Assembly (NCBI GenBank): GCA_944325005.1
Contig: CALUYO010000002.1
Location: 62,001 to 126,000, forward strand
Origin: Candidatus Gastranaerophilales bacterium
GTDB lineage: Bacteria; Cyanobacteriota; Vampirovibrionia; Gastranaerophilales; Gastranaerophilaceae
Direction: 5' to 3'
Length of the DNA: 64,000 bases
Positions 13,728 to 47,048 of the stretch are shown here, piece by piece. Each line of letters opens with the position of its first letter. The first letter of the stretch is position 1. The position numbers and the translations under genes are program-made. Under the pieces are notes generated by a model. It saw only the letters and a list, made by a program, of their open reading frames with translations. It did no database searches and was not told the DNA's origin.

Positions 13728-14418
13728 ATGAAAAAATTTTTTAATTTTGTTTGTCGGGGGGGGGGAGCAATTTTTAGCTCCTTTACGTTCGTTTACCCTC
13801 GCGGAGGTCTTGGTTACACTCGGAATAATTAGTGTTGTGGCGGCTTTGACTATTCCATCGCTTATACAAAACCATAATAAACGTATTATTGAAACAAGGC
13901 TCCAAAAGTTTTATTCAACAATTAATCAGGCTGTCTTAATGTATGAGTAAGAAAATAATGTCATGAAAGAAGACTGGCATCCAAGTGCACTCTGTTCCAA
14001 TATGAATTCCAGTTCTTATGAATGTAATTTAATTATTTTTAATCAATATATTGCCCCTTATATAAAATACACAAAAATAGAAGATAGGGATAATCGATTA
14101 TATGTGTATTTTACAGATAGTTCAGCCGCACGTTTTACCTATTATGGTCAGGATATTTGGTTTTTCCCAAAATCAACAAAAACATTAATGCCATTTGACT
14201 CACTAAAAATCGGTAAAGACTATTTTGGATTTGCTTTTTATCCGGCCGGCGCCAGCGGCAATAGAAATAGTTACTTTAAAGGTAAAGGTGTTGAACCTTA
14301 TATTACTGTGGACTGGGATGGCACAAAAAAAGGGCTTTATTCTAGTTGTAATAATGCTGCAAAAATTATTCAGTTGAATGGCTGGCTTATTCCTGACGAT
14401 TATCCCTGTCTGCACTAA
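13728..14418 (+). pseudogene. Type IV pilin-like gene, out of frame at a poly-G tract and with an in-frame stop
   Basis: ATG 13728 with AAAGGAG upstream reads MKKFFNFVC and enters a run of ten G (13756-13765), after which it ends at a TAG near 13830. With nine (or twelve) G it would join the frame carrying LRSFTLAEVLVTLGII (from about 13785). That is the class III prepilin N-terminus, with the usual Gly before FTLAE replaced by Ser. The same frame has a TAA at 13948-13950 and then continues to 14418 (NNVMKEDWHPS... ending NGWLIPDDYPCLH), matching its intact paralogues. So there are two lesions, one possibly reversible and one a single-codon nonsense change. An in-frame TTG at 13747 has no ribosome binding site. 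Confidence 0.8.
13756..13765 (+). repeat. Poly-G tract of ten bases in the pilin leader (locus 1)
   Basis: Ten consecutive G on the coding strand within leader-peptide codons. Loss of one G restores the frame from ATG 13728 into the pilin helix. Its flank (TC-G10-AGCAATTTTTAGCT) resembles the non-coding strand of the tracts at 24.6 and 46.9 kb, so the module lies inverted relative to the gene here. Confidence 0.85.
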
Positions 14419-23917: not shown

Positions 23918-24681
23918 TTAATATGTCATTTCCCAGTTATCATTTAATATTTTGCCGAAACAACCGGCGCCAAATGTGCTTGCTTTACAATGAGAATTAT
24001 AGTATGTATCTCTGATATCTTTAAGTGAGCTGCCGCCACAGATCCCTTCGGATTTACAGGAAGGTGTTGCACCCTCTATATCTATTGATCCATCATCGTA
24101 AAATTCAACATAGAACATATCTCTACCACCTATGTTAGGCCCCTGAGGACCATTTATATCAATCAGCATGTGTCCATAATATGATGTAATTCCGTCAACA
24201 GTTTTAGAATAAATGTTGGGTTTATCAATTGCAATTGCTGCACCGCTTGCGAGGGTAACTACAGAAGCGCCGCTCCAGTTTTGTTTTGTGTTAGATGAAA
24301 CCCCGTTTAAATTTTTATAACTTTCAGAAAAACAGGGTGCTTGTACACCAGTTCCACAATCATTTATTACTTTAAAATAATTTAGTGTAAATTCCTTTAT
24401 TTTTGCTGCACTTGTAAGTCCTGCTTCTCTCAGATTTACGGCATTTCTGTCGGTCATATATTGAATAGAAGCCTGTTGGACTTCAGTATAAACTTTATGT
24501 AGTTGCGTAACATATGTTTTTCGTTGATGATTTTGCATCAAAGATGGTACAGTCATCGCTGATACTATACCGATAATCCCGAGAGTAACCAGTACTTCCG
24601 CAAGTGTAAACCCCCTAAGCCCCTTCTTCAGTCTTAGTTTCTCGGGGGGGGGGCAACTTCTAAAGCTTTAAAATCAATCAT
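23918..24681 (-). CDS. Type IV pilin-like protein, frame-interrupted by a poly-C tract (phase-variable candidate, OFF)
   Basis: ATG 24681, with AAGGAGGC 5 bases upstream and a TTGACA-17-AATAAT promoter, reads MIDFKALEVAPPP and enters ten C. It then terminates at a TAA (24634-24636). With eleven or eight C the same start gives a 24-residue leader ending KKGLRG followed by FTLAEVLVTLGIIGIVSAMT, a standard class III prepilin site (G before FTLAE). The rest is intact to 23918 (about 210 residues after the helix), with six cysteines in the C-terminal third. No ATG, GTG or TTG lies in the pilin frame between tract and helix, so the OFF state should be tight. Likely an envelope-associated pseudopilin; assembly partners are outside this window. 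Confidence 0.82.
24644..24653 (-). repeat. Poly-C tract of ten bases in the pilin leader (locus 2)
   Basis: Ten C on the coding (minus) strand, flanked by AGCTTTAGAAGTTG and GAGAAACTA. It encodes the ALxxAPPP-EKL part of the leader. At ten it is out of frame; adding one C or removing two restores the pilin frame. Confidence 0.88.
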
Positions 24682-46239: not shown

Positions 46240-46988
46240 TTACAACCTGTATGGGTAATCGTCAGGAATTTTCCACCCGTTAGACATAATCTCATAGGCG
46301 CAATATTTTACATTGTCTTTGCATTTACCTTCAAAGGCGGTTATAGTACCATTCTCATAATCACGCATAAAGTGAAAAACGTCTCTTCCTGCCTCATTTG
46401 GATTTTTAGGACCGTTAATATCTATAAATAGATCTGAAACATAAACTGGAGCTCCGGATGCATTTTGAGTGTTTCTTGGAAAAAATATTACAGTACCATC
46501 ATTAAGTTGAAATAATAGTCTGGTAGAAGAAGTTTGCAGGCCCCACATTCCTTCGCCTGCCCACTTGTTAGAAAATGTTGTATTAGTACAACTGCTTGGA
46601 TAGCCACAAGTTGCACAGGTTTCACATAGTCTAGCGCCATTAAAATAAGGTCTCAGATAAGTTGTCCAAAACTCGTTAACATTCATATTGGCTCCATTTG
46701 GCCAATCTTTCATCATACCGTTATCATTTTCGGAAAGCCTTATGGCATTTGTCATAACATTATATGCTTTACTCAAGCGAGTTTCAGCGACTTTTTTATT
46801 TTGATTTGCAATTAACGATGGCATAGTCAATGCTGCAACAACTCCTATAATTCCAAGAGTAATTAAAACTTCGGCAAGAGTAAAACCGATCTCAAAGGTA
46901 GAATATGGTAAAAGGCATCTTGTATCAAAGTTATTAACTGCTAACTTTTCGGGGGGGGGGCAATTTTTAAAGCTGAAATTTTTCTCAT
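46240..46988 (-). CDS. Type IV pilin-like protein, frame-interrupted by a poly-C tract (phase-variable candidate, OFF)
   Basis: ATG 46988 follows AAGGAG by 7 bases and a TTGACT-17-AATAAT promoter. It reads MRKISALKIAPPP, enters ten C and ends at a TAG just behind. With eleven (or eight) C the frame joins a 35-residue leader ending TFEIG and the helix FTLAEVLITLGIIGVVAALT. It then runs open to 46240 (about 212 residues after the helix; CETCATCGYPSSC motif; end NGWKIPDDYPYRL). No start codon lies in the pilin frame between tract and helix. The body closely parallels the intact gene at 56.1 kb (WPNGA, FWTTYLRPYFNGARLCETC). Probably an envelope pseudopilin. Confidence 0.82.
46951..46960 (-). repeat. 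Poly-C tract of ten bases in the pilin leader (locus 3)
   Basis: Ten C on the coding (minus) strand, flanked by AGCTTTAAAAATTG and GAAAAGTTA. The flanks are shared with locus 2, and in inverted orientation with locus 1. Same length, same place in the leader, and same out-of-frame state as at 24.6 kb. Confidence 0.88.
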
Positions 46989-47019
46989 ATGTAACTCCTT
47001 AAGTTATAATAACCTTTTT

Positions 47020-47048
47020 ATTATTTACTATTTTATAAAAAAAGTCAA
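47020..47048 (-). promoter_or_regulatory. Sigma70-type promoter of the third pilin-like gene
   Basis: Minus strand: TTGACT, 17-base spacer, AATAAT, 31 bases before ATG 46988. The spacer end ATAGTAAATAAT resembles that of the locus 2 promoter. Confidence 0.65.

Follow-up and report, generated by a model that had tools for sequence, protein, structure and literature searches.

The poly-C and poly-G tracts that interrupt the leaders of type IV pilin genes in this Gastranaerophilales genome are oriented by replication and not by the genes that carry them. If the leading strand is assumed to be the strand of positive GC skew, the G run lies on the leading strand whichever way the gene points, and the polarity of the tracts flips at the origin and terminus defined by skew. 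This relationship was absent from the preliminary description, which presented one of the tracts as a length switch in a pilin leader, recurring in a second gene.

The window, i.e., the whole stretch of 64,000 nucleotides analysed (positions 62,001-126,000 of contig C2 in a 2.0-Mb genome of 27 contigs, denoted G000), contains C or G runs of at least eight bases in three places only, each run being exactly ten bases long. These yield nine eight-mer matches against 0.20 expected, a number reached in none of 100 shuffles, which rules out a chance origin. In all three tracts, the G side is on the plus strand, although the gene at locus 1 points the opposite way. Locus 3, labelled earlier as the second switch, is by coordinate the third of three, the first being a coding-strand G run. 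Its proposed layout is confirmed by the letters of the minus strand: a ribosome-binding site, AAGGAG (46,995-47,000, by direct reading), is followed by the leader ATG (46,986-46,988), located 28 nt ahead of the ten-C tract (46,951-46,960; a G run on the plus strand), and by an early TAG. With ten C, the leader frame reads MRKISALKIAPPPKS and then stops; with 11 (or 8) C it is joined, as had been predicted, to FTLAEVLITLGIIG, which follows a G at the start of an intact pilin body of 215 amino acids (46,240-46,887, minus strand). This body belongs to DUF6613 and matches the N_methyl family PF07963 only weakly (E 0.00145; 16.5 bits, below the cut-off of 21.2). Farther upstream lies a promoter-like element, TTGACT-17-AATAAT (47,020-47,048, minus strand, identified by eye), of the TTGACA/TAAATAAT type.

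Locus 2, also on the minus strand, has a ten-C tract (24,644-24,653) in a leader that starts from ATG 24681, which is OFF at this length and would be ON at 11, followed by an intact body of 230 amino acids (23,918-24,610) without a Pfam match at E 0.01. The codons ALxxAPPPEKL are indeed common to the leaders of loci 2 and 3. At locus 1, on the plus strand, the leader starts from ATG 13728 and contains a ten-G tract (13,756-13,765), and the pilin body (13,792-14,418) is broken by an in-frame TAA (13,948-13,950), so that this pilin alone of the three looks degraded.

Recurrence in two genes, as originally noted, greatly understates the extent of the phenomenon: the genome contains 101 runs of at least nine C, and 89 of the 100 that were fetched and examined are located within 200 bp ahead of a type IV pilin N-terminus. 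The genome encodes 111 matches to PF07963, the N-terminal methylation and cleavage motif. The lengths are sharply distributed, with 90 tracts of 10, seven of 11 and one each of 9, 12 and 14; merging tracts with equal flanks gives the lower totals of 96-97 tracts and 85-87 pilins and, with such merging, 31 pilin tracts are in the C sense and 55 in the G sense. A few tracts found elsewhere than at pilin starts have similar borders (L022, L023, L024, L051, L057, L074 and L101, among others); the first of these seems to be close to the 3' end of a gene for a membrane protein. Related tract sites, with runs of 14 and 10, are also seen near contig ends, at L067 and L101 (ends of C5 and C21, respectively).

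Frame scoring covered all 100 tracts, 14 of which lack an open pilin leader. Among the remaining 86, a ribosome site and an open start are present in 83 (82 of these unambiguous and scored, and one ambiguous), and three are without a scorable start. Of the unambiguous starts, 78 belong to ten-base tracts: 75 of these are OFF and need one additional base, two are ON, and one, the degraded gene at locus 1, is the single exception that needs +2 or -1. By contrast, all four scorable eleven-base tracts are ON; another, L086, at a contig end, was ON in a looser scoring and was dropped by a stricter motif filter. The +1 rule is obeyed by C-sense (28 of 29) and G-sense (47 of 49) scorable ten-base genes alike, even though the spacing on either side of the tract, back to the start and on to the pilin, runs through all phases. 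Thus, as in homopolymeric simple-sequence-repeat contingency loci subject to phase variation, a tract in the 5' coding region sets the frame by its length. Beyond the OFF tracts, the pilin bodies stay open, mostly over 200-250 amino acids, with a few short ones.

The further in-frame stop in locus 1 might suggest decayed pseudogenes in which a homopolymer happened to occur. For the family as a whole, this reading has next to no probability and is refuted by the common frame (75 of 78) and the mostly open, full-length bodies, in a system that extends across the genus.

Length polymorphism at homologous sites was found between paralogues and between species. The clearest pair consists of L033 (11 bases, ON) and L034 (10 bases, OFF), which are 97.4% identical over 193 nt, from the ribosome site into the pilin helix, and which differ upstream, so that the cassette is common to both and the promoter region is not. 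Among similar-flank tract pairs, 103 of 308 are unequal in length, and these comparisons point to real length change in descent. Taken together, the uniform frame, the 9/10/11 variants across the genus and the near-identical copies with 10 and 11 bases lend good support to the original proposal of a length switch in a pilin leader; its basis in the leader codons shared by two genes was too narrow, the conserved feature including a DNA pattern, YG-C10-G[AC]. Given that the assembly methods behind the genomes are unspecified, one could envisage that the true length is 11 and that one base was lost in the assemblies. This is very improbable, considering that runs of 11, 12, 13 and 14 were also assembled, that 33 genomes agree, that Illumina sequencing is accurate on such tracts according to the portions of PMC6321876 considered here, and that such an error would create no strand rule.

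The strand rule itself is most clearly seen between neighbouring tracts on the same contig, whose orientation agrees in 79 of 81 pairs in G000; the strand of the pilin gene agrees in 42 of 71. Only two flips of orientation occur in this genome, one on C2 between 109 and 129 kb and the other on C10 between 30 and 55 kb, where the last tract is near the contig end. We set the flips against skew in two genomes, G000 and a relative, G026. On C2, both GC skew and T-A skew turn from positive to negative between about 72 and 132 kb and, on C10, GC skew turns from negative to positive near 35-40 kb. In three relatives (G026, G007 and G019), the tracts form one-flip blocks, with four flips in 114 neighbouring pairs (counted by hand); in G026, both flips bracket skew changes, which place the origin near 50 kb of C1 and the terminus near 230-260 kb of C2. 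At the level of single loci of about 3 kb, the strand with the G run has positive GC skew in 75 of 95 cases. The dnaA gene (C4:144492) is not at a flip and lies between equally oriented tracts; therefore, skew and not dnaA was used as the origin marker. In G026, tracts are sparse near the putative origin, with one in about 330 kb between 40 and 370 kb of C1.

Orientation fixed by replichore is a property of polar sites such as Chi and KOPS, which are G-rich on the leading strand and flip at the origin and the terminus, as the tracts do. The tracts might then be a Chi- or KOPS-like signal for recombination or translocation that shuffles 5' cassettes and bodies, the effect on the frame being secondary. 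The polarity, the conserved borders of the tracts, the common cassette with different promoter regions in L033 and L034, and the fact that in 27 of 84 genes the closest body match belongs to the opposite leader class all speak for this possibility. Nevertheless, we regard it as quite unlikely: unlike Chi and KOPS, whose known orientation biases are incomplete, the tracts are nearly restricted to pilin leaders, occur at a near-fixed distance from the start codon and are tied to the reading frame, and the uniform +1 relation and the ON state at 11 would be left unexplained.

The conserved borders consist of YG before the tract in 94 of 100 cases and G[AC] after it in 93 of 100, compared with 12-15% and 11-13%, respectively, at shorter C runs (3-5 bases) of that DNA. 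They are maintained whatever the sense and the reading phase, across all six combinations, and in both gene orientations. The 10-16 bases upstream of the tract are rich in purine-AGC in both classes, with a register that moves with phase. A longer upstream DNA motif (RRAGCTT..) was rejected because the position of AGC moves by one to two bases from one reading phase to another; the upstream motif is therefore likely to be partly coding, and we limit the DNA-level claim to the immediate borders.

Genes facing one way have poly-C leaders, mostly preceded (by eye) by TTGACA...TAAATAAT, and those facing the other way have poly-G leaders, mostly preceded (also by eye) by TTGAAA...TGTTATAAT. Bodies are common to both classes, as exemplified by L013 (C) and L089 (G), which match at 62%, so leader class goes with the strand relative to replication and not with the pilin family. 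Some leaders (L016, L020, L100, L060 and others) are long, with about 98-126 nt from tract to pilin, and contain a second promoter-like sequence, TTGCAA...TGTTATAAT, then an inverted repeat, GTGAT-N7-ATCAC, and often an inner start of the form M-K-K-A followed by FTLAEV, as though an earlier promoter and start had received the tract cassette in front of them with the frame preserved.

The tracts are characteristic of the genus. The sequence C10GA was found in 30 of 33 same-genus genomes, in up to 121 copies, and at most twice per genome across 25 genomes outside the genus. The 33 congeneric genomes contain runs of at least ten C at 1365 places, of exactly eleven at 101 and of exactly nine at 66 (hand sums of per-genome tables); the modal tract length is 10, and 9, 10 and 11 all occur. 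In relatives, the nine-base tracts (33, nine of them unambiguous) are in frame 1 in seven of nine cases, and the ten-base tracts (31, 17 unambiguous) are in frame 2 in 14 of 17, with three ON. Of the eleven-base tracts (35, 16 unambiguous), 11 are ON, four are in frame 1 and one is in frame 2; the other tracts lack either a pilin within 200 bp or a start, or their starts are ambiguous, and a few loci were fetched twice. Among the 15 tracts fetched from G026, 11 of the ten-base tracts could be scored, nine of them requiring +1 and two being ON; both eleven-base tracts are ON. Matches to thrB came mainly from Gastranaerophilales MAGs, with identities of up to 93%, in line with an origin of the window in that order. 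Among 80 thrB loci (about 1 Mb), motif tracts are present at two only (L166 and L172). Some tract-bearing frames in relatives (L123, L232, L244, L247 and others) continue for at least 100 amino acids and resemble translated dispersed repeats. The tract cassette looks like an add-on since the tract-poor congeners G013, G022, G024, G028 and G030 have ordinary short pilin leaders (five pilin loci per genome). Two of these, G022 and G030, have 134 and 98 PF07963 matches but four and no tracts, respectively.

The most plausible interpretation, which we consider probable on the strength of these comparisons, is that the genome carries a phase-variable library of pilins, OFF by default and driven by slippage, with tracts that persist in a single replication orientation. 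Each tract would act as a simple-sequence-repeat switch in which length controls translation: with the preferred ten bases, the leader would be out of frame and the pilin OFF, and the gain of one base, by replication slippage, would turn it ON, so that, of about 90 pilins, nearly all would be OFF and only a few expressed per cell at once. The leader of type IV pilins is removed by prepilin peptidase and, since the switch lies in the part predicted to be removed, Pro3 or Gly3 there would cost little. A replication-slippage switch that is ON at 11 explains the frame, the intact bodies and the length variants; the strand rule calls for a strand-dependent step. The rule would then exist because a run retains a workable length and rate of switching in no other arrangement than with G on the leading strand, and hence the 5' cassettes would have evolved in two forms, poly-G in genes co-directional with the fork and poly-C in head-on genes. 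Loss of mutS1 as the cause is ruled out, MutS1 being present in the genus. For (G.C)6 runs in E. coli, differences in frameshifting between leading and lagging strands of 1.5- to 5-fold have been reported (PMC3306285), and strand-dependent slippage is raised solely as a possibility in the sections of PMC9187656 considered here. Such a few-fold asymmetry seems small for so strict a rule. Three further observations count against this interpretation: plain slippage would not lead one to expect a length mode that, as here, is sharper than that described for Campylobacter (PMC6321876); of the unambiguous eleven-base tracts in relatives, 5 of 16 are out of frame; and dnaA is off the flips.

A further possibility, to which we give only modest weight, is that a dedicated, strand-aware system recognises YG-C10-G[AC] at the fork, holds the run at ten and passes a rare extra base. 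The default state of the library would then be OFF, with genes switched singly, and head-on and co-directional genes would have had to evolve mirror-image cassettes to satisfy the system. The very sharp length mode, together with the same +1 offset in almost every gene, in Pro and Gly runs alike, also fits programmed recoding, whereby the ten-base form works through RNA polymerase slippage (+1) or -1 ribosomal frameshifting on C10 or G10, which would mean a constant low level of every pilin. Recoding appears unlikely because the replication-strand rule would then be needless and similar leaders exist with 11-base and 9-base tracts. Finally, a retron- or DGR-like retroelement that writes a fixed C10 motif into lagging-strand sites would account together for fixed length, fixed borders and replication strand; reverse transcriptase (RVT_1) was not found in the tract-rich genomes G007, G015, G025 and G026, so this candidate was rejected and its probability is minute.

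Large repertoires of surface proteins of which few are expressed are not without precedent. In Neisseria, pilin variation involves pilE/pilS conversion with an upstream G-rich element, alongside opa phase variation; the present system is similar in its repertoire and in having a G-rich element near the pilin gene. However, unlike the silent copies of pilE/pilS, which have no expression signals of their own, most copies here have their own promoter-like sequence (by eye), ribosome site and intact body, and no single expression locus as in Neisseria was found in this genome. The pilus switch of Bifidobacterium breve, as described in the parts of PMC9187656 considered here, likewise involves a gut bacterium and a homopolymer in the first pilin gene whose length, changed by replication slippage, joins two open reading frames, with two loci, sortase pili and a G tract on the coding strand. 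The present system differs in comprising about 90 type IV pilin genes, with G or C sense set by replication direction, common borders and 11 bases as the shared ON length. The poly-G tracts of Campylobacter, surveyed with PhasomeIt (PMC6321876, in the portions considered here), are similar in that an AT-rich genome contains many G/C runs of 9-11 that turn surface functions on or off by frame, with 5-81 phase-variable genes per strain; length nine accounts for 53% and ten for 26%, and the tracts are gene-locked, with coding-strand C in only 5% of ORF tracts. By contrast, the tracts described here are replication-locked, with 31 in the C sense and 55 in the G sense, 90 of 100 are exactly 10 bases long, and they serve one gene family. 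Among the open-licence papers searched, we found no report of phase variation in Gastranaerophilales or Melainabacteria and no description of the present pilin system.

The published accounts of repeat-driven phase variation compared here, in the parts considered, proceed gene by gene and mention the replication strand at most in passing. Against this background, a gut bacterial genus appears to have assembled an on/off library that is very large, draws on a single family and has a common ON length, with a polarity that, in the genomes examined, changes at the origin and the terminus only. Either ordinary asymmetry combined with selection or a dedicated factor could be responsible for the strand rule, and the system makes it possible to test whether leading and lagging replication treat G/C runs differently enough to shape the locations of switches.
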